64,000 nucleotides of DNA, taken from contig DYGX01000006.1 in the NCBI GenBank assembly GCA_020724465.1, forward strand, positions 131,603-195,602, in the 5' to 3' direction. The position numbers were made by a program, and so were the translations under genes. The number at the start of each line of letters is the position of its first letter. Within the stretch, counting starts at the first letter, position 1. The DNA comes from Thermoflexus sp. (lineage in GTDB: Bacteria; Chloroflexota; Anaerolineae; Aggregatilineales; Aggregatilineaceae). The notes beneath the pieces are model-generated. The model made no database searches. It was not told the origin of the DNA and saw only the letters and a list, made by a program, of their open reading frames with translations. Below, piece by piece: positions 33,747 to 44,889 of this stretch.

Positions 33747-33787
33747 AAACAAAAATCCCCTTCGCGCTCAAGGACGAGAAAGGGGAT
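33747..33787 (-). terminator. T-box-controlled intrinsic terminator before trpE
   Basis: ATCCCCTT and AAGGGGAT form an 8-bp stem (33755-33787), followed on the minus strand by TTTTTGTT. The left arm begins immediately after the T-box, so antiterminator and terminator exclude each other. Confidence 0.92.
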
Positions 33788-34095
33788 CCCGCGGTGCCAC
33801 CTTGCTTAAGCCGCCCGACCCCCAAAAACAAAAAAATCCACGGTGAACGCAGATTTTTGGGGAGAGCCAGCTTCACTCATTGGGGTACGGACCCGGACGA
33901 GTCGATACCCGCTGCCCTGATAACGGTGGCGTCTCCGGTGCGGGCTACTGGGCGTGGTCGCCGTTCGACCGCACAGCTCCCTGGTCCATTCCGCGCCCGC
34001 GCATGTATCGCCTTCGCAGCACCCGGCGACTCTCTGAACACCGCCCTGACGCGTACTATCCCAGATCGCAGCTTTTGATGTATGCGATTGGTTAG
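33747..34095 (-). promoter_or_regulatory. tryptophan T-box riboswitch of the trp operon
   Basis: On the minus strand the leader holds the T-box AAGGTGGCACCGCGG (33789-33803) directly before a terminator. Upstream is an AGAGAG motif (34030-34035) leading into a stem I tip with GGGTGCTGCGAA. On the 3' side of stem I is a specifier GAATGGACC, whose codon TGG is at 33986-33988. The bulge TGGC pairs with a tRNA ending GCCA, matching the G discriminator of tRNA-Trp. So uncharged tRNA-Trp should stabilise the antiterminator and turn on trpE-A. The class is well established; the assignment here is from sequence. Confidence 0.93.
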
Positions 34096-34498: not shown

Positions 34499-34544
34499 GC
34501 ATCTATAGGGGCGCACGAGCTGCGCCTGCTGGCGCCGGTGCCGC

Positions 34545-34634
34545 CCCTCACCCCAAACCCTTCTCCCTCTGCGACTGCGTCGCGGGGCGAGGGGCTTGAT
34601 CTGCGGCGCTGTGCTCCCCTTCTCCCCGCGGCGA
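34545..34634. repeat. dispersed repeat, copy 2 (inverted)
   Basis: The reverse complement matches copy 1 at 13939-14028 over about 90 bp, with shared core TCTCCCTCTGCGACTGCG on this strand. It lies between the KTSC gene and the aro operon promoter. Confidence 0.75.
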
Positions 34635-34691
34635 GGATGAGGGGTACACAGAATGCACCCTCGTCATTTTGCACCAAAATACACGGACGGA

Positions 34692-34721
34692 TTGACAGCG
34701 CCCGCCGGGCTGTGTTACTCT
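34692..34721 (+). promoter_or_regulatory. aromatic operon promoter
   Basis: TTGACA (34692-34697) and TTACTC/TACTCT (34715-34721), spacer 17-18. The form matches the trp operon promoter. Transcription should start near 34728 and produce a leader of about 220 bases before the terminator. Confidence 0.85.
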
Positions 34722-34758
34722 GTGGGCTAACATACGAACAGGAAGAACCAAACTCGCC

Positions 34759-34893
34759 ATGCAGGCTCGTCAGCGCTCTATCCGCTCCAACCACCTCGAC
34801 CAGAACACCGCCTGGGTCTGGTTCGGCTTTTATTTCTACTTTGAGCGCCATACGACAGGTCCGAGCTTGGCGACCGCCCCAGGTGGCTGCTAG
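34759..34893 (+). CDS. aromatic-amino-acid leader peptide of the aro operon
   Basis: A 44-codon frame between the aro promoter and a strong terminator. Codons 19-28 (34813-34842) read W-V-W-F-G-F-Y-F-Y-F: two Trp, four Phe and two Tyr codons in ten. The stop is TAG at 34891, 24 bases before the terminator hairpin. AGGAAG (34740-34745) is the only SD-like site and is 13 bases from the ATG, which is long. The frame is too short and odd to be an enzyme; its place and content are those of an attenuator leader, like E. coli pheL or trpL but covering all three aromatic amino acids. A ribosome stalled on these codons would signal low charging of aromatic tRNAs. Confidence 0.88.
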   Translation: MQARQRSIRSNHLDQNTAWVWFGFYFYFERHTTGPSLATAPGGC

Positions 34894-34948
34894 TCCCAGT
34901 TTCAAGCGAGAAATACGGGGCGCCGAGCACAAGCTCGGCGCCCTTTTT
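34808..34948 (+). promoter_or_regulatory. ribosome-mediated attenuator of the aro operon
   Basis: Four pairing segments are visible. Segment 1 (34808-34816, CCGCCTGGG) pairs with CCCAGGTGG (34878-34886). Segment 2 (34865-34880, GCTTGGCG, then CCCC after a bulge) pairs with segment 3 (34917-34928, GGGGCGCCGAGC). Segment 3 also pairs with segment 4 to form the terminator. Segment 1 contains the first Trp codon. Stalling in 34813-34842 frees segment 2 to hold segment 3 (antitermination); a ribosome reaching the stop at 34893 covers segment 2 and lets the terminator form. Pairings were derived by eye. Confidence 0.85.
34918..34948 (+). terminator. attenuator terminator before aroH
   Basis: GGGCGCCGAGC (34918-34928) and GCTCGGCGCCC (34933-34943) form a perfect 11-bp stem with loop ACAA, followed by TTTTT. 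It stands 46 bases before the aroH start, so it can only serve to control the operon downstream. Confidence 0.95.
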
Positions 34949-34994
34949 GGTGTCAGGGAAGCGCTCGAAGACGACCGCGTGAAGGAGAGAGACC

Positions 34995-35396
34995 GTGACC
35001 ACTGCCCAGCCCGAACGACCGATCCGCTGCCGGGGCGTGCGCGGCGCGATCAGCGTTGAGGCCAACACCGCCGACGCCATCCTCAGCGCCACGCGCGAAT
35101 TGCTCGAAGCGATGATCGCGGCCAACGGAATCGAGCCGGACGACGTGTGCAGCCTGATGCTGACCACCACGCCCGATCTAACCGCGGAATATCCGGCCAT
35201 CGCCGCGCGCCAGCTTGGCTGGCTGGATGTGGCGATCCTGTGCGGGCACGAAATGGCCGTGCCGCATGGCCTGCCGCGCTGCGTGCGTGCGTTGATCCAT
35301 TGGAATACGGACCGCACGCCTCAGGAGATTCAGCACGTTTACTTACGGGACGCAGAGACACTGCGTCCCGATCGTGTGACCCGCCCTGCCCTGTAA
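34995..35396 (+). CDS. aroH: chorismate mutase, AroH type
   Basis: A 133-residue monofunctional chorismate mutase of the AroH (trimeric alpha/beta barrel) class, converting chorismate to prephenate. Blocks are [52 protein letters not shown] and the C-terminal [11 protein letters not shown]; the Arg and Glu residues expected in the active site lie in these. GTG start with AGGAG 7 bases upstream. It is the first gene of the aro operon, just behind the attenuator. Confidence 0.95.
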
Positions 35397-35435: not shown

Positions 35436-36482
35436 ATGATCGTTGTGATGAACGCCAACGCCAACGCCCGCGATATTTCCGAGGTCATCGCCCGCATCCG
35501 CGCCATGGGCTACGACGTGCACCTGTCGCATGGCAAGGAGCGGACCATCATCGGCGTGATCGGGCGCGGCACGCCCATCGATCGCGACAAGCTTAGCTTG
35601 CTGCCGGGCGTGCAGCAGGTCGTGCCCGTCACGCACCCGTACAAGATCGCCAGCCGCGAATTCCACCCCGACGACACCCTGGTGCCGCTCAACGGGATCG
35701 AGGTCGGCGGCCCGAACCTGGCGATTATCGCCGGACCGTGCTCGGTTGAGAGCCGCGAGCAGATCATCGAGACCGCCCACGCCGTGCGCGAGGCCGGCGC
35801 GACCGCCCTGCGCGGGGGCGCCTTCAAGCCGCGCACCTCGCCCTACAGCTTCCAGGGGCTGGGCGAAGAGGGCCTGCGCTATCTGGCCGAAGCCCGCGAG
35901 GCGACCGGCCTGCCGGTCGTCACCGAGGTCATGGACCCGGCGCTTGTCTCCCTGGTGTGCGACTATGCGGACGTGCTGCAGGTGGGGGCGCGCAATATGC
36001 AGAACTACGCCCTGCTGCACGCCGTCGGCGAGAGCCAGCATCCCGTGCTGCTCAAACGCGGCATGAGCAATACCATTGAGGAGCTGCTCATGGCTGCCGA
36101 GTACATCTTGAGCCACGGTAATATGCGGGTGATGCTCTGCGAGCGCGGCATCCGCACCTTCGAGACGTATACGCGCAACACGTTCGACATCAACGCCATC
36201 CCCGTCCTCAAGCACATCTCGCACCTGCCCGTGATCGCGGATCCGAGCCACGCCGTCGGCAAGTGGGAATATGTTGAGGCCGTCGCGATGGGCGCGGTCG
36301 CTGCGGGAGCGGACGGGATCATCGTGGAAGTGCACATGCACCCGGAAATCGCGCAGTCGGACGGGCAGCAGTCGCTCAAGCCGGAGCGGTTCGCCGCCCT
36401 GGTCGAAAAGCTGCGCCAGCTTGCACCGGTCGTTGGGCGCCAGGTCGCGCCTAGCCCGCAGGCGGTGGGGCCACATGCCTGA
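35436..36482 (+). CDS. aroF: 3-deoxy-7-phosphoheptulonate (DAHP) synthase
   Basis: A 348-residue type I-beta DAHP synthase, first step of the shikimate pathway. Residues 1-70 are the extra ferredoxin-like/ACT-type domain ([20 protein letters not shown]) that gives feedback inhibition in Thermotoga-like enzymes. The catalytic barrel has [34 protein letters not shown] and [12 protein letters not shown] with metal ligands. AGGAGAG precedes the ATG. Its stop overlaps tyrA by 8 bases. Enzyme inhibition and attenuation together would give two layers of control. Confidence 0.96.
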
Positions 36483-37338
36483 AGCGCTGGCCGGCTGCAC
36501 CGTCCACATCGTCGGGCTAGGGCTGATGGGCGGCTCGCTGGCGCTGGCGCTGCGCGGTCATGTCGAGCGCCTGACCGGCCACGATCTGAGCCGCGAAGCG
36601 GCCGAGCACGCCCGGCGGACGGGCGCCATTGACGAGGAGTCCGCCAGCGCGTGGGGCGCCGACATCATTGTGCTGGCGATTCCCGCCGACCGGATCGTGA
36701 GCCAGGTCGCCGCCCTGGACGCCCGGCCCGGCGCGCTGGTCATCGACCTGGGCAGCACCAAGACGCAGATCTGCGCCGCGCTGGATCGCCTGCCGGACGG
36801 CGTGCGCGCCGTCGGCGGGCACCCGATGTGCGGGCTGGCAGAAAACGGCTACCAGCACGCCATCCCGACACTCTACCGGGGCGCGCGTTTCGTGCTGTGC
36901 GAAACGGCGCGCACCACGCCCGACGCCCGCGCGCTGGCCGAGGCGCTTGTGCGCGCTGTTGGAGCGCATCCGCTGTGGATGGACCGGTGCCGCCACGACG
37001 AGCTGGCTGCCCTGACCAGCCATCTGCCGCACCTGCTCAATTTCGCCCTGATGCGGCTGGCGATGGCGCGCGCGGCCCAGGATCCGGACGTTTACGCCCT
37101 GGCTGCGGGCGGGTTTGACGGGGCGACCCGCCTGGCCCGCACCGCCGAGAGCATGATCGCGGGGATGTTCAGCACCAATGCCGACGAGCTTCGCCGGGCC
37201 GCCGCCGAGCTGCGCGAGCATCTGGATGCGCTGGAATGTCTGCTCGACGACGCGCCCGCGCTCCAGCGCGAGCTGGGGGCCATCGTCGAAGCCCGCCGGG
37301 CCTATACCACCGCCTATGGAGAGCGTCTGATCACATGA
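36475..37338 (+). CDS. tyrA: prephenate dehydrogenase
   Basis: A 287-residue NAD(P)-dependent enzyme making 4-hydroxyphenylpyruvate (or the arogenate equivalent). The Rossmann motif [13 protein letters not shown] is at about 14-26; [14 protein letters not shown] and the C-terminal helical domain ([13 protein letters not shown]) carry the catalytic His and substrate site. ATG 36475 overlaps the aroF stop; GTGGGG is the SD. There is no C-terminal ACT domain. Specificity for prephenate over arogenate cannot be told. Confidence 0.94.
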
Positions 37339-38687
37339 GCGAGCCTCTAACCCACGACGTTCAGGTTCGGGTGCGTCCGGGGCGCACGCTACAGGGCGCC
37401 TGCCACGTGCCCGGCGACAAGTCGATCTCGCACCGCGCGCTGATCCTCGGCGCGCTGGCGGACGGCACCAGCCAGGTGCGCGGGAGCCTGTCCGCCGGGG
37501 ACACCCGCGCCACCCTGGGCGTGATGCGGGCACTGGGCGTGGCGATCGAGACGCCCGACCCGACGACGTTAATCGTGCACGGGCGCGGGCTGCGCGGCCT
37601 GGAACCGCCCGCCGCGGCGCTCGACTGCGGCCACGCGGGAACCGCGATCCGGCTTCTGGCAGGCGTGCTGGCCGGGCAGCGCTTCACCAGCGTGCTGGAC
37701 GGCAGCGCCCAGCTTCGCCGCCGCCCGATGCGCCGCGTGGTCGAGCCGCTGCGCCAGATGGGCGCCCAGATCACGGACACACGCGGCTGTGCCCCCTTAC
37801 GGGTGGTCGGGTCGCCGCTGCACGGGATCGCCTACCGGATGCCGGTCGCCAGCGCCCAGGTCAAGAGCAGCATTTTGCTGGCCGGGCTGCTTGCCAGCGG
37901 GCCGACCGCCGTGATCGAACCCGGCCCGGCGCGCGATCACACCGAGCGGATGCTGCGCGCGATGGGCGTCGATGTGGAGACGGCGGACGGCTGCTGCGTG
38001 ACACTCATCCCGCCCGCCCGATTGCACCCCCTTGACCTGAGCGTGCCGGGTGATCTATCCTCTGCAACGTTCGTGCTGGTGGCGGCGCTGCTCGCCGGCG
38101 CCGGCGACGTGACGATCGCGGATGTGGGCGTCAACCCCACACGCACCGGCATCCTCGATATTCTGGGCGCCATGGGCGCCAGCATCGCGCAGCAAGACCC
38201 CCGCGCGGAATCGGGCGAGCCGGTGGCGGATCTGGTCGTCCGCCCGTCGGCGCTGCGCGGCACCGCGATCGCGGGCGATTGGGTGGTGCGCGCCATCGAC
38301 GAGTTCCCGGCGCTGATGATCGCCGCGACTCAGGCCGAGGGCGTGACCGAGGTGCGCGGCGCGGGAGAGCTGCGCGTCAAGGAAACGGATCGCATCGCGG
38401 TGATGGCGGCAGAGCTGCGCAAGCTGGGCGCCAGCATCGAGGAGTGGCCGGACGGGTTCCGCATCACCGGGCCGCAGCGGCTGCGCGGCGCCACCGTCGA
38501 CGGGCACGACGATCACCGCGTGGCGATGGCGCTGGTGCTGGCCGGGCTGGTCGCCGAGGGGCCGACTACCGTCGCCAACGCGCGCTGCATTGAGGATTCC
38601 TTTCCGGGGTTTGTCGAGACGCTGCAGGCGCTCGGCGCGGACGTGGCACAGGTCATCGCGGGCGAGCGCAGTGAGCGAACAGCATGA
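37335..38687 (+). CDS. aroA: 3-phosphoshikimate 1-carboxyvinyltransferase (EPSP synthase)
   Basis: A 450-residue enzyme that adds enolpyruvate to shikimate 3-phosphate. Signature blocks are PGDKSISHRALILGAL, the DCGHAGTAIRLLAG region, RRRPMRRVVEPLRQMG and VKETDRIAVMAAELRKLG. The LDCGHAGTAIR form (GNAGT in many class I enzymes) shows an unusual His in the loop near the glyphosate-site Gly-Ala; its effect is unknown. ATG 37335 overlaps the tyrA stop by 4 bases. Confidence 0.96.
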   Translation: MSEPLTHDVQVRVRPGRTLQGACHVPGDKSISHRALILGALADGTSQVRGSLSAGDTRATLGVMRALGVAIETPDPTTLIVHGRGLRGLEPPAAALDCGHAGTAIRLLAGVLAGQRFTSVLDGSAQLRRRPMRRVVEPLRQMGAQITDTRGCAPLRVVGSPLHGIAYRMPVASAQVKSSILLAGLLASGPTAVIEPGPARDHTERMLRAMGVDVETADGCCVTLIPPARLHPLDLSVPGDLSSATFVLVAALLAGAGDVTIADVGVNPTRTGILDILGAMGASIAQQDPRAESGEPVADLVVRPSALRGTAIAGDWVVRAIDEFPALMIAATQAEGVTEVRGAGELRVKETDRIAVMAAELRKLGASIEEWPDGFRITGPQRLRGATVDGHDDHRVAMALVLAGLVAEGPTTVANARCIEDSFPGFVETLQALGADVAQVIAGERSERTA

Positions 38688-39532
38688 ATGAGCAGGCCAA
38701 CCAGACGACGCGGGTCGGGCTGTTCGGCTGGCCGGTGGAGCACAGTCTTTCGCCCGCCATGCACAACGCGGCCTTTCTGGCCCTGAAGATGAACTGGCGC
38801 TACGAGCTGCTGCCCGTCCCGCCGGGGCGGCTGGCGGACGAGGTCGCGCGGCGGGTGGATGAGGGCTTCCGCGGCTTCAACGTGACCGTGCCGCACAAGC
38901 GCGCCGTCCTCGACCTGCCGCAGATCAGCGAGGTGACGCCCGCCGCCCAGGCCATCGGCGCGGCCAACACGCTCACCGTCCTGCCGGACGGCACGCTGCA
39001 GGCCGACAACACCGACTGGGAAGGCTTCCAGCGCGATCTGCAGATGTATCGCGTCGCGCCCGACCGGCTCAACTGTCTGGTGCTGGGCACAGGCGGCAGC
39101 GCGCGGGCGGTGATCTACGCGCTGGAGCAGATGGGCGCGCGCTCGATTGTGAGCGTCAGCCGCCAGCCGGACGGCAGCGCCAGGGTGATCGGCTACGACG
39201 AGCTGGCCGCGCACGCGCCGGGGGCCAACCTGGTCATCAACTGCACGCCGCTCGGCCTGGCGCCGGATGTCGAGCGCTCGCCCTGGCCGGACGGCGTCCC
39301 GCTGCCGGAGCACGCGATGCTGTACGATCTGGTTTACAACCCGCCGGTCACCGCGCTGATGCGCCGCTTCATGGCGGCGGGGCTGCGCGCGTTCGGCGGG
39401 CTGGGGATGCTGGTGTGGCAGGGCGCGCTGGCCTGGATACGCTGGACCGACGCCCGCCCGCCAGTGGACATTATGTTTGCTGCGGCGCGCAACGCGTTGC
39501 GCGCCATGACTGCCCCGCCTGGGGCTGGATAG
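38684..39532 (+). CDS. aroE: shikimate dehydrogenase
   Basis: A 282-residue NADP-dependent enzyme reducing 3-dehydroshikimate. N-terminal substrate site [17 protein letters not shown] and [10 protein letters not shown] with the catalytic Lys; DNTDWEGF holds the Asp. The Rossmann loop is [14 protein letters not shown]. It overlaps aroA by 4 bases (ATGA). Confidence 0.96.
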
Positions 39533-39543
39533 GAGCAATCTGC

Positions 39544-40836
39544 ATGACGACGGCAGAACTCACCGGCACCCTCGTCGACGAACTGCGCTGGCGAGGGCTG
39601 ATCCACAACACGACCGAGGGCGCTGAGGACGTCCTGGCCCGCGAGAAGGTCACCGCCTACATCGGCTTCGATCCCAGCGCCGACAGCCTGCATGTCGGCC
39701 ACCTGGTGCCGATCATGGTGCTGGTGCACCTGCAACGCTACGGCCACCACCCGATCGCGCTGGCGGGCGGCGGCACCGGGATGATCGGCGACCCCGGCGG
39801 CAAGACCAAGGAACGCCCCTTGCTCTCGGAAGAAGAGCTGGCGCACAACCTGGAAGGCATCAAGCGCCAGCTCAGCCAGTTCCTGAAGTTCGAAGGCGTG
39901 CCCAACCCGGCGCGGCTTCTCAACAACGCGGACTGGCTGACGAAGCTGAACCTGATCGGCTTCCTGCGCGACATCGGCAAGCACTTCACCGTCAACTACA
40001 TGATCGCCAAGGATTCGGTCCGCATGCGGCTGGAAAGCGAGGAAGGCATCTCGTTCACCGAGTTCAGCTACATGCTGCTCCAGGCCTACGACTTCCTGCG
40101 GCTCTACCAGGATTACGGCTGCACGTTCCAGATGGGCGGCAGCGACCAGTGGGGCAACATCACCGCCGGGGTCGAGCTGATCCGCAAGGTGGCGGATGGC
40201 AAAGCGCACGCCGTGACCGTCCCCCTCGTCACGTCGTCCAGCGGCGTGAAATTCGGTAAGACCGTGGCCGGGGCTGTCTGGCTCGACCCCAGGCGGACGT
40301 CGCCGTTCCGCTTCTACCAGTTCTGGATCAACACCCCCGACGCGGACGTGATCACGTACCTCAAGTACTTCACGCTGCTCGACCGCGAGACCATCGCGGC
40401 GCTGGAGCACGCCGTCGCCACCGAGCCGCACCGGCGCGCCGCCCAGATCCGTCTGGCCGAAGAAGTGACGCGCATGGTTCACGGCGAATCCGGGCTGCAA
40501 GCCGCCCAGGCCGCGACCGAAGTCCTGTTCGGCGACCGCGATCTGGCCGGCCTGAGCGCGGACGATCTGCTGGATATCTTCGCCGAGGTGCCGTCCACCA
40601 CGCTCGACGCGGCGGCGCTGCGCGGCGAGGGAATGAGCCTGGTCGATCTGGTGGCGCAGACCGGCCTGGAAAGCTCCAAGGCGCAGGCGCGGCGGCTGAT
40701 CGAAAGCGGCGGGCTGTCGCTCAATAACCGCCGCGTGGACGACACCGCCGCCCGCGTCACGCTGGCAGACGCGATCGAGGGGCGCGTGCTGGTCCTGCGC
40801 AAGGGCAAGAAGTCGTACCATCTGATCCGCGTGTGA
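39544..40836 (+). CDS. tyrS: tyrosyl-tRNA synthetase
   Basis: A 430-residue class I synthetase. The HIGH motif reads HVGH (50-53) and the KMSKS motif reads KFGKT (236-240), as in bacterial Tyr[11 protein letters not shown] is the tyrosine-site signature. A C-terminal S4 RNA-binding domain is at about 360-425 ([20 protein letters not shown]). AGGAG lies 8 bases before ATG 39544. It sits inside the aromatic operon, so tyrosine charging and tyrosine synthesis respond to the same attenuator. Confidence 0.97.
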
Positions 40837-40863
40837 TGCGAGCGCCGCGCGAGGGAGCCTGAC

Positions 40864-42048
40864 ATGCTGCGCTTTCTGACGGCCGGAGAGAGTCACGGGC
40901 CGCTGCTCACCGCCATCCTCGAAGGGATGCCCGCCGGGCTGCCGCTGTCGCCGGACGACCTGGCGCGCGACCTGGCACGCCGCCAGCAGGGCTACGGCAG
41001 CGGCGGGCGGATGCAGATCGAGCGCGACCGCGCGCGCCTGACCGGCGGCGTGATGAACGGTCAGACCACCGGCGGGCCGATCAGCCTGGAGATCGAAAAC
41101 CGCGACTGGAAAAACTGGGCGCAGAAGGACATCGAACCGCTGGTCACGCCGCGCCCCGGCCACGCCGACCTGACCGGCGCGATCAAGTACGGCTATCGCG
41201 ACCTGCGGCTGGCGCTGGAACGCTCCAGCGCGCGCGAAACGGCGGCCCGCGTGGCGGTAGGGGCGATCTGCAAGCGGCTGCTGGCGGAGTTCGGCGTCAC
41301 CGTCGGCGGCTATGTGATCGCCATCGGCGGCGAGGCCGCCCACCTGCCGGAGCCGCCCGACTACCCGGCGCGCTTCGCCGCGGCGGAAGAGTCGCCGGTG
41401 CGCTGCCCCGATCCGGACGCCTCGGCGCGCATCGAGGCCGCCATCCGCCAGGCCAAGATCGACCGCGACACGCTCGGCGGCATCATCGAGGTCGTCGCGC
41501 TCGGCCTGCCGCCAGGGCTGGGGTCGCACGTCCACTATGACCGCCGCCTGACGGGGAGGCTGGCCGCCGCTGTGTGCAGCGTGCAGAGCATCAAGGGAGT
41601 CGAGATCGGCCCGGCCTTCGAGAACGCGGCCCGGCGCGGCACGCAGGTCCACGACGCGATCACCCGCGACGAGATGGGGCGGCTGGTCCGCGCGACCAAC
41701 CGCGCCGGCGGGCTGGAAGGCGGCATGACGACCGGCGAGCCGCTGGTCGTGCGCGCCGCCATGAAGCCGATCAGCACCACCCTCACGCCGCTGGACACGG
41801 TCAATCTGGCGACCGGCGAACCGGCCCAGACCGTCTACGAGCGCAGCGATTTCTGCGCCACGCCGCGCGCCGTCGTGGTGATCGAGGCGATGGTCGCCTT
41901 TGTGATGGCCGACGAGCTGCTGCGCAAGCTGGGCGGCGACAGCCTGGACGAGATCCGCCCGCGCTTCGCTGCGCTGCGCCAGGCGCGGGTGGATGCGCTG
42001 CCGATGGACAACGCGCCCTGGCGGTTCGGCTATGACGACTGGCTCTAA
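40864..42048 (+). CDS. aroC: chorismate synthase
   Basis: A 394-residue FMN-dependent enzyme making chorismate from EPSP. Typical blocks are TAGESHGPLLTAILEGMPAGLPL, GRPGHAD-like RPGHADLTGAIKYG, RSSARETAARVAVG and the C-terminal DFCATPRAVVVIEAMVAF. It overlaps aroK by 17 bases. Confidence 0.97.
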   Translation: MLRFLTAGESHGPLLTAILEGMPAGLPLSPDDLARDLARRQQGYGSGGRMQIERDRARLTGGVMNGQTTGGPISLEIENRDWKNWAQKDIEPLVTPRPGHADLTGAIKYGYRDLRLALERSSARETAARVAVGAICKRLLAEFGVTVGGYVIAIGGEAAHLPEPPDYPARFAAAEESPVRCPDPDASARIEAAIRQAKIDRDTLGGIIEVVALGLPPGLGSHVHYDRRLTGRLAAAVCSVQSIKGVEIGPAFENAARRGTQVHDAITRDEMGRLVRATNRAGGLEGGMTTGEPLVVRAAMKPISTTLTPLDTVNLATGEPAQTVYERSDFCATPRAVVVIEAMVAFVMADELLRKLGGDSLDEIRPRFAALRQARVDALPMDNAPWRFGYDDWL

Positions 42049-42559
42049 CACGCCGCGCAACCTGGTGCTGGCCGGGTTCATGGGCGCGGGCAAGACGACC
42101 GTCGGGCGGCTGGTCGCGGCGCGGCTGGGCTGGCCGTTCATCGACACGGACGAACTGGTCGAGCGGGCTGCCGGGCGCTCGATCGCGGCCATCTTCGCGC
42201 AGGACGGCGAGGCGGTCTTCCGACGCCTGGAACGCGACGCCTGCCAGCAGGCCGCGCTGCTGGACGCGCACGTGATCGCCACCGGCGGCGGCGCGCTGCT
42301 CGACCCGGAAACGCGCACCGCGTTTCTGGCGCGGGGCGTGGTGGTCTGGCTTAGCGCGGAGCTAGACACGATCATCGAGCGCCTGGGGCGCGGCGCCGAT
42401 CGCCCGCTCTTTGCCGGCGATCACACCCGGCTGGCAACGCTCTTCGCGGCGCGCGCCCCGCTCTACGCCGCGCTGCCGCACCGGGTCAAGACGGACGGGC
42501 GTCCGCCGGAAGCGATCGCCGAGGAGATTGTGACGCTGTGGCAAACCTGCACGAGCTGA
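42032..42559 (+). CDS. aroK: shikimate kinase
   Basis: A 175-residue P-loop kinase that phosphorylates shikimate. Walker A is GFMGAGKTT; substrate residues are in FIDTDELVE and the GGGALL loop (ATGGGALLDPET). The lid Arg is in GADRPLF. ATG 42032 is inside the end of aroC, and aroB starts 22 bases before its stop, so the three are translationally coupled. Confidence 0.95.
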   Translation: MTTGSNTPRNLVLAGFMGAGKTTVGRLVAARLGWPFIDTDELVERAAGRSIAAIFAQDGEAVFRRLERDACQQAALLDAHVIATGGGALLDPETRTAFLARGVVVWLSAELDTIIERLGRGADRPLFAGDHTRLATLFAARAPLYAALPHRVKTDGRPPEAIAEEIVTLWQTCTS

Positions 42560-43596
42560 CCGTGCGCGGCGCAGAACGCGAGTACCCGGTTCTGATCGGG
42601 CCGGGGGCGCTCGAAGGCGCGCTGCCCGAATTTGTGCGGCGCGGCGGGTTCTCGCGGGTGGCGATCGTCACCAACACGCCGCTCGCCCCGCTCTACGGTC
42701 TGGCGCTGGTCGAGCGTTTGCCCGGCGCGCGCCTGATCACCCTGCCCGACGGAGAGCAGTACAAGACGCTCCAGACGCTCGCCGGGCTATACGGCGAGCT
42801 GCTGGCGATCGGGGCAGACCGCGCCAGCCTGCTGATCGCGCTCGGCGGCGGAGTGATCGGCGACCTGGCAGGCTTCGCGGCGGCGACCTTCATGCGCGGA
42901 ATCGCGCTCGTCCAGGCGCCGACCAGCCTGCTGGCGATGGTGGACGCCAGCATCGGCGGCAAGGTCGGTGTCGATCTGCCCCAGGGCAAGAACCTCGCCG
43001 GGGCATTCAAGGACCCGCTGGCCGTCTTCGCGGACACGGACGCGCTGCGCACGCTGCCCCGCATCGAGTGGCGCTGCGGGCTGGCCGAGGTCGTCAAGGC
43101 CGCGCTGATCGCCGATCCGCCCCTGCTCGACCATCTGGCGGCGCACGGGCCGGAGCCGGTGGAAACGGTCATCGCCCGCGCCGCGCGGGTCAAGATCGAT
43201 GTGGTCAACCGGGACCGCACCGAGCAGAACGTGCGCGCCTACCTTAACCTGGGCCATACCTTCGCCCACGCCATCGAGCAGGCCAGCGGCTACGCCTGGC
43301 GGCACGGCGAGGCGGTCGCGGTGGGGCTGGTGGGCGCCGGCCTGCTCTCCGAGCGGCTGGGGATGGCCGCGCCGGGCCTGGCGGAACGGATCGAGCAGGT
43401 CCTGGCCGGGCTGGAGCTGCCCACCCGCTACACCGATCTCGATCCCGATGCGCTGTGGGCGGCGATGGCGCACGATAAAAAGTGGCGCGGCGGCGCGGCG
43501 ACGTTTGTGCTGCTGGACGGGATCGGGCGTCCGCGCGTGGCGCGCGACGTGCCGCGTTCGGATGTCATGGCGGTGCTGGAGGCGCTGCGCGCATGA
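42538..43596 (+). CDS. aroB: 3-dehydroquinate synthase
   Basis: A 352-residue NAD- and metal-dependent enzyme forming dehydroquinate from DAHP. Blocks are [40 protein letters not shown], and [11 protein letters not shown] plus [10 protein letters not shown] with the metal-binding His and Glu. GTG start with GAGGAG about 12 bases upstream, overlapping aroK. Confidence 0.97.
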
Positions 43597-44045
43597 AGAT
43601 TCTGGTGTTGCACGGCCCCAACCTGAACCTGCTCGGCACGCGCGAGCCGGATGTCTACGGTCGGGTGACGCTCGACGAGATCGACACCCGTCTGCGCGCC
43701 TACGCCGCCGGGCGCGGCGCGGAAGTCCGCACGCTGCAAAGCAACCACGAGGGTGCGCTGATCGACGCGCTTCATGAGGCGCGCGGCTGGGCGGACGCGA
43801 TCATCCTCAACCCCGGCGCCTACACGCACACCAGCGTCGCCCTGCGCGACGCGCTGAGCGCGGTCGGCCTGCCGGCGATCGAGGTGCACCTGAGCAACAT
43901 CCATGCCCGCGAGCCGTTCCGCCACACCTCGCTGATCGCGCCGGTCTGCGTGGGGCAGATCAGCGGGCTGGGCTGGCTCGGCTACCGGCTGGCGCTTGAG
44001 GCGCTGCTTGAGCGCGGCCCGGCGGGCGAGCCTGAGGAGACATGA
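43593..44045 (+). CDS. aroQ: 3-dehydroquinate dehydratase, type II
   Basis: A 150-residue type II dehydroquinase. The catalytic Tyr/Arg region is [17 protein letters not shown], with [16 protein letters not shown] and [15 protein letters not shown] further on. It overlaps aroB by 4 bases. With this gene all seven shikimate steps are present in the operon. Confidence 0.97.
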
Positions 44046-44049
44046 GACA

Positions 44050-44889
44050 TTGAGCGAACTCATCGTTGCGTTCCAGGGCGTACACGGCGCCTATTCCGAA
44101 GAGGCGATCCGCTGCTTTTTTGGGCCAGACGCCCACACGCTGCCGTGCGAGACATTCGCGGGCATTTTCGAGGCGATCAAGTCCGGCGAGGCGACCGCCG
44201 GGATGCTGCCGGTCGAAAACGCGCTGGCGGGGACGGTCTCCCAGGCGTACGAGCTGTTGATGGAACATGACTTCCGCGTGCAGGGCGAGCATATCCTGCC
44301 GGTGCGGCACTGCCTGCTGGCACCCCCCGGCACGACGCTGCAAGACGTGCGCAAAGTGCGCTCGCACCCGCAGGCGCTGGCCCAGTGCGCCGCCACACTG
44401 CGCCGCCGGGGTTGGGAACCGGTCGCCTGGAACGACACCGCCGGGGCCGCGCGCGATCTCGCCGCCCAACCGGAGCCGCACACCGCCGCCATCGCCAGCG
44501 CGTTGGCCGGAGAGTTATATGGCCTGAACGTGCTGGAGCGTTCCGTCGAAGACGACCCCAACAATTCGACCCGCTTCTTCATCATCGGCTCGACCGACGC
44601 GCCCCGCCGCGACCCCAGCAAGACCTCGCTGGTCTTCGCCGTGCGGCACGGGCCGGGCGCGCTGGTTCGCTGCCTGGACGCCTTCGCCAAGCGCGGGATC
44701 AACCTGACCAAGATCGAGTCGCGCCCGATGCGGGGGCGCCCCTGGCAGTACTGGTTCTATCTCGACTTCGAGGGCCACTGGCAGGACCCGCCCGCCGAGG
44801 CTGCCCTGATCGAGCTGCTGCGGCAGGCGTCGATGGTCAAGATGCTCGGCTCGTACCCGGCGGCGACGGGCGGCCCCAACAGCGTCTGA
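44050..44889 (+). CDS. pheA: prephenate dehydratase
   Basis: A 279-residue enzyme turning prephenate to phenylpyruvate. The catalytic domain (1-180) has AFQGVHGAYSEEAI, LPVENALAGTV and the diagnostic NSTRFFII. A C-terminal ACT domain (about 192-270; KTSLVFAVRHGPGALVRCL, then LTKIESRPMRGRPWQYWFYLDF) should bind Phe for feedback inhibition. The start is TTG 44050 in frame, with GAGGAG 10 bases upstream; no ATG fits. It is the last gene of the operon and ends 26 bases from the convergent GH65 gene. Confidence 0.95.
   Translation: MSELIVAFQGVHGAYSEEAIRCFFGPDAHTLPCETFAGIFEAIKSGEATAGMLPVENALAGTVSQAYELLMEHDFRVQGEHILPVRHCLLAPPGTTLQDVRKVRSHPQALAQCAATLRRRGWEPVAWNDTAGAARDLAAQPEPHTAAIASALAGELYGLNVLERSVEDDPNNSTRFFIIGSTDAPRRDPSKTSLVFAVRHGPGALVRCLDAFAKRGINLTKIESRPMRGRPWQYWFYLDFEGHWQDPPAEAALIELLRQASMVKMLGSYPAATGGPNSV

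Follow-up and report, generated by a model that had tools for sequence, protein, structure and literature searches.

A probable leader-peptide attenuator with Trp, Phe and Tyr codons upstream of a shikimate operon in Chloroflexota

Organization of the aromatic amino acid locus

The window (the whole 64,000-nucleotide stretch of Thermoflexus sp. contig DYGX01000006.1 that was analysed) contains an 11-gene operon, aroH-aroF-tyrA-aroA-aroE-tyrS-aroC-aroK-aroB-aroQ-pheA, which encodes the whole shikimate pathway, the Phe and Tyr branches and a tyrosyl-tRNA synthetase. The genes were named by NCBIfam, and the names of tyrA, aroE and the shikimate kinase gene (aroK) come from best matches, all below the cutoff. 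An earlier note on this DNA had placed a complete shikimate operon behind a leader peptide; this was right, and the operon is slightly larger than claimed, with tyrS included and pheA as the last gene. With tyrS (39541-40833, plus strand) among the genes of the aromatic operon, the switch described below would induce the tyrosyl-tRNA synthetase as well. The features discussed below are as follows.

33767-34078, minus strand: T-box leader (RF00230) before trpE, found with Rfam
34692-34721, plus strand: probable promoter, with TTGACA (34692-34697), an 18-nt spacer and TACTCT (34716-34721), from the sequence
34740-34745, plus strand: possible ribosome-binding site AGGAAG of the leader ORF, from the sequence
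34759-34893, plus strand: leader peptide ORF, 44 codons and TAG, from the sequence and counterparts in related loci
34808-34816, plus strand: candidate region 1, CCGCCTGGG, able to pair with 34878-34886, from the sequence
34813-34842, plus strand: control codons WVWFGFYFYF (codons 19-28), from the sequence; stalls there favour the antiterminator in the folding scan
34861-34880, plus strand: region 2, the antiterminator 5' half, with core CCGAGCTTG at 34861-34869 and GCCCC at 34876-34880, from the cognate-pairing test and folding
34917-34948, plus strand: intrinsic terminator, with stem 34918-34928/34933-34943, loop 34929-34932 and U-tract 34944-34948, from the sequence
34995-35396, plus strand: aroH, chorismate mutase, first gene of the operon (NCBIfam TIGR01796)
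35436-44889, plus strand: rest of the operon, aroF (DAHP synthase), tyrA, aroA, aroE, tyrS, aroC, aroK, aroB, aroQ and pheA (NCBIfam)

The leader peptide of 44 residues, MQARQRSIRSNHLDQNTAWVWFGFYFYFERHTTGPSLATAPGGC, can be read directly in the sequence as the earlier note had described it, with W-V-W-F-G-F-Y-F-Y-F at codons 19-28 and a TAG stop at 34891-34893. Trp, Phe and Tyr are the products of the pathway that the operon encodes or feeds. The AGGAAG motif lies 13 nt from the ATG, which is longer than usual, and the site is less than ideal. In a sister species, three codons of the ORF differ, all synonymously, and the peptide is identical. The perfect 11-bp terminator stem reported after the leader ORF is present at 34918-34928/34933-34943; it lies between the ORF and the first gene, aroH, and consists of 11 perfect pairs (12 with a G-T) followed by TTTTT at 34944-34948.

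The TTGACA/TACTCT promoter of the earlier note is probable. Both motifs are present, and 54 of 65 relatives, versus 13 of 65 reversed controls, have TTGACA-type promoter-like pairs in the 200 nt before the run; however, the -10 element is weak, and a promoter scan of the window did not report the pair because TACTCT matches the -10 consensus at only 3 of 6 positions. Just upstream of the promoter, the C/G-rich intergenic sequence at 34540-34650 (ctcaccccaaacccttctccc...gcggggcgaggggcttgat) resembles a dispersed repeat.

The Trp branch genes trpE, trpG and trpD are encoded on the minus strand behind the T-box leader, and the specifier codon appears to be UGG (Trp) by our reading of the alignment. 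Two divergent neighbours, the Trp branch and the shikimate/Phe/Tyr operon, would thus use different tRNA-sensing mechanisms. This T-box is the only one in the window, and none was found in the aroH leader. A search of the aroH leader region (34650-35000) against Rfam, at the gathering threshold and at E ≤ 10, returned no relevant family and neither Phe_leader nor Trp_leader.

Conservation of the leader in related loci

The leader was compared among approximately 140 related loci, which were filtered for similarity and are phylogenetically non-independent. Among named relatives, the nearest is 'Anaerolinea sp. isolate Tomsk_5_66_7' (L101; contig identical to L002), whose AroH is 96% identical. 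The search of related genomes for a W/F/Y-rich frame before aroH, which had been suggested as a check, gave a clear answer: a short ORF with at least six W/F/Y in 10 residues is present within 700 nt upstream of aroH in 61 of 90 loci from the same order, versus 1 of 538 reverse-strand control pieces of 700 nt. This conservation rules out a chance ORF. In the remaining loci of the order, the runs, if any, are shorter and mostly Tyr-rich (e.g., RYYYYPNC).

The ORF extends beyond the order. With a threshold of at least five aromatic residues in 10, it was found in 31 of 31 further class-level loci, in 33 of 40 loci of a later class-level fetch, and in the Chloroflexia-like loci L210-L221, L225 and L234-L237. 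Neither L224 and L226-L233 nor 19 of 20 other loci from the phylum reached the threshold of six in 10. An aromatic-rich ORF before aroH therefore spans Anaerolineae and, apparently, Chloroflexia, the latter label for the loci of families f61, f71 and f96 being assigned from relatedness. Run and terminator are both present in 110 distinct loci, in which the distance from the end of the run to the terminator is 49-89 nt. In the Chloroflexia-like loci L211-L219, the post-leader hairpin shortly before aroH is kept, though with a poor U-tract (e.g., CCCTCTCTGC), and may terminate transcription in a U-poor or factor-assisted manner.

Runs of at least five F/Y codons elsewhere in the genome of the window gave six pattern matches (two overlap), and none of those examined leads an aromatic operon. 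One pair is located where a long open frame becomes Y-rich towards its end, one match is antisense in a ribosomal-protein cluster, and two others lie in open frames of 107 codons (L238) and 87 codons (L239), the latter with no aromatic gene after it among the ORFs listed.

Alternative pairings and their covariation

The earlier note had proposed three mutually exclusive pairings and a covariation test of the stems in relatives. For this test, duplex energies were computed in 65 sequence-dissimilar representatives, every run-to-terminator segment being paired with its own terminator hairpin and with those of the other loci. Cognate duplexes were more stable, with a double-centred residual of -4.33 kcal/mol that was matched in 0 of 20,000 permutations. 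The signal was centred on the loop (residual -3.17; 0 of 20,000 permutations) and was weaker for the 5' arm alone (-1.54) or for the loop and 3' arm alone (-0.86). An antiterminator limited to the 5' arm of the terminator was rejected on this comparison. The stretch just before or at the run start also preferred its own downstream segment among the 65 loci (-2.90; 0 of 20,000 permutations), and the signal for pairing between regions 1 and 2 peaked from -30 to +15 nt around the run start.

In the window, the core of the predicted antiterminator is formed by CCGAGCTTG (34861-34869) and CAAGCTCGG (34930-34938), so that the loop and inner 3' arm of the terminator double as the antiterminator strand. 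All three pairings of the earlier note exist by sequence, although the best antiterminator is not confined to the one it named. The antiterminator placed at 34865-34880:34917-34928 is part of the best structure and extends the core but is not the core itself. The pairing of 34808-34816 with 34878-34886, through which region 1 might sequester region 2 in an untranslated leader, lies where the comparative signal for region 1 is found but was not decisive in folds of the window sequence.

Unlike helices occupy the same place in other loci, namely GGGCGTTATCT:GGATAACGCCC in L020, GGTGTGAGGC:GTCTCACACC in L054 and CATCGCTCCATGC:GCGTGGAGCGATG in L198, as compared with CCGAGCTTG:CAAGCTCGG in the window. 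Such dissimilar helices at one position are hard to explain without selection for pairing. The partner strand also varies: the loop and inner 3' arm tend to serve in the order to which the window belongs, and the 5' arm and loop in several other families.

Folding during transcription

Folding of the leader with and without the segment covered by a ribosome had been proposed as a further check; it revealed no switch at equilibrium and one at partial transcription. When the complete RNA was folded at equilibrium with ribosome masks, the terminator formed at every ribosome position (P ~0.98). As the terminator always wins at equilibrium, the switch must be kinetic, and this approach was replaced by a scan at partial transcription. 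The folded RNA began at the leading edge of the ribosome, set 13 nt past the first A-site base, and ended once 6 nt of the 3' arm had emerged; the scan thus has a single assumed footprint, a single assumed RNA 3' end and no kinetics.

With the A site at W19, W21, F24, F28 or H31, the hairpin sequences of the window paired with region 2 (0.71-0.77 upstream and 0.00-0.03 within the hairpin), and stalls at the two Trp codons were as permissive as those at the Phe and Tyr codons. Once the A site had reached G34, and also when no ribosome was placed on the RNA, the hairpin sequences paired mostly within themselves (0.51-0.54). Codons 19-31 are therefore permissive in the scan, and those from codon 34 onward are not.

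The same behaviour was observed in the 65 representatives. The preference for the antiterminator peaked at the last aromatic codons (0.55-0.59), fell to approximately 0 at +4 codons and reached approximately -0.3 from +6 codons, with the sign change at +4/+5 codons, and it was higher in the run than late in the leader in all 65 loci. When the run-to-terminator segment was shuffled, the profile became flat (-0.11 to -0.02). Loci fetched after the method had been fixed gave the same curve (31 of 31), at least two of which (L258 and L262) repeat genomes of the first set or have near-identical leaders. In the same scan, the E. coli trpL leader was permissive at codons 9-12, including both Trp codons, and the pheL leader at codons 4-13, a stretch spanning the majority of its Phe codons; their like behaviour validates the scan.

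Proposed mechanism

The ORF, its aromatic run, the terminator, their conserved order and spacing, the covarying pairing and the match between run position and switch are supported by sequence and comparison. With trpL and pheL as positive controls, these results support the leader-peptide attenuation put forward in the earlier note, and the element is very probably a ribosome-mediated transcription attenuator. RNA polymerase would start near 34727 and transcribe the leader, with a ribosome following on the 44-codon ORF. When aromatic charged tRNAs are plentiful, the ribosome would pass the aromatic codons and cover region 2 (~34857-34880) as the terminator emerges; the 11-bp hairpin would then form and transcription would stop at 34944-34948. 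When the ribosome is held at any aromatic codon among codons 19-28 (Trp, Phe or Tyr), presumably by uncharged tRNA, region 2 would remain free to pair with the emerging terminator through the core 34861-34869:34930-34938. The terminator would then form too late to act, and transcription would continue into the shikimate/Tyr/Phe operon, tyrS included. We infer the size of this effect, as we do the start site, the stalling on uncharged tRNA and the sensing of each of the three amino acids.

Comparison with known leaders

E. coli pheL and trpL, which had been named as precedents, follow the same logic and behave alike in the folding scan; they differ in that each reads one amino acid and controls one branch operon. 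One leader can read several related end products, as in the multivalent attenuators ilvL and thrL of E. coli, which differ from the present leader in using branched-chain or Thr/Ile codons instead of aromatic ones. The closest precedent, however, is the aroR leader of Corynebacterium glutamicum aroF, which contains Phe-Tyr-Phe and responds to Phe, not Tyr (Neshat et al. 2014 via PMC11802643, PMC4046766). It resembles the Chloroflexota leader in its mixed Phe/Tyr codons, in ribosome-mediated attenuation and in its location before a DAHP-synthase operon; it differs in having only Phe-Tyr-Phe with no Trp and in belonging to Actinobacteria, and the likeness is one of position and codons. Compared with aroR, the Chloroflexota leader has a longer run (mostly 6-10 codons) and precedes an 11-gene operon. 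No ORF with at least six aromatic residues in 10 was found in the Actinobacteria aroH loci examined. The uORFC-13-1 motif, which precedes aroF and is reported from Acholeplasma and environmental sequences alone, likewise combines a short ORF bearing at least one Phe codon with a terminator before DAHP synthase, but lacks a long mixed F/Y/W run (PMC8632094).

The earlier note knew of no described leader of this kind in Chloroflexota. In agreement, no aromatic leader peptide from this phylum was found in the open-access literature, although a subscription paper may have been missed. Ribosome-mediated attenuation as such is known from trpL and pheL. The new aspects are the apparently phylum-wide occurrence, the long mixed aromatic run with its unusually broad range of control codons, the whole-pathway operon and the loop-centred antiterminator.

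Sensed amino acids and alternative explanations

Among the 65 representatives, Tyr codons are present in 65, Phe codons in 64 and Trp codons in 20 runs; in the later-fetched set, Trp codons occur in 12 of 31 loci. The earlier claim that one attenuator reads Trp, Phe and Tyr thus fits the codons in the window, which cover all three, but does not hold for the whole family, since Trp occurs in about a third of lineages. Trp is nevertheless enriched at the run: of the residues other than Phe and Tyr, it makes up 25 of 396 in the dense stretch or immediately ahead of it, versus 15 of ~1,734 elsewhere in the same peptides. It occupies varied positions across many lineages, and 16 of the 26 Trp codons in the runs of the representatives are at clearly permissive positions.

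A plausible though doubtful alternative is that the attenuator answers to Phe and/or Tyr only, with the Trp codons building the G-rich stem of region 1 or mattering little, and with Trp shortage left to the Trp T-box before the divergent trpE operon. The near-universal Phe and Tyr codons compared with the sparse Trp codons would fit this explanation, as would the T-box on the opposite strand and the overlap of the first Trp codon with region 1 (34808-34816). The C. glutamicum leader points the same way: aroR carries Phe-Tyr-Phe and answers to Phe only (PMC11802643), so the make-up of a run is no proof that every amino acid in it is sensed. Against it stand the enrichment and scattered positions of Trp, whereas residues that a single base change would produce from Phe or Tyr codons are rare in the runs (Cys, 1; Leu, 2), and the stalls at W19 and W21, which are as permissive as those at Phe and Tyr codons. 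On this evidence, we infer that Trp codons are under selection in the leaders that have them and that the lineage of the window probably senses all three aromatic amino acids.

Two further explanations concern the peptide itself. The run is densely aromatic, and nascent-chain arrest of the TnaC type, perhaps with a free amino acid as ligand, would be expected to give the same RNA outcome as stalling on uncharged tRNA. We consider it improbable, as no residue or spacing is fixed across loci (e.g., FYFYYYF, YFGYWFSYF and WVWFGFYFYF) and the trpL/pheL logic suffices; to our knowledge, arrest peptides have fixed residues and spacing, unlike these runs. Even less credible is a small functional hydrophobic peptide with a terminator that merely insulates the operon. 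The identity of the peptide in the sister species would agree with such a function, but the peptide shows no conservation across families outside the run, its length and stop position vary, and the codons that follow the run specify RNA able to pair with the terminator of the same locus.

Beyond attenuation at the single locus, we are inclined, with some reserve, to a wider reading: a phylum-wide attenuator family (Anaerolineae and Chloroflexia) in which one leader would integrate the charging levels of tRNA-Phe and tRNA-Tyr and, in the third of lineages to which that of the window belongs, of tRNA-Trp as well. It would thereby form an OR gate for the entire shikimate pathway, with a loop-capturing antiterminator whose sequence has been rewritten repeatedly while its complementarity was kept. 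If true, classical leader-peptide attenuation would extend to Chloroflexota, and the common pathway as a whole would lie under a natural sensor with three inputs, the aromatic aminoacyl-tRNAs. The many divergent leaders that keep the pairing make a good comparative system for attenuator evolution, and Trp-containing versus Trp-lacking leaders allow a direct test of the contribution of each control codon. In the family f2 loci (L056-L088), the run is reduced to mostly Tyr codons (RYYYYPNCIDRSG), which suggests a change of the sensed amino acid.
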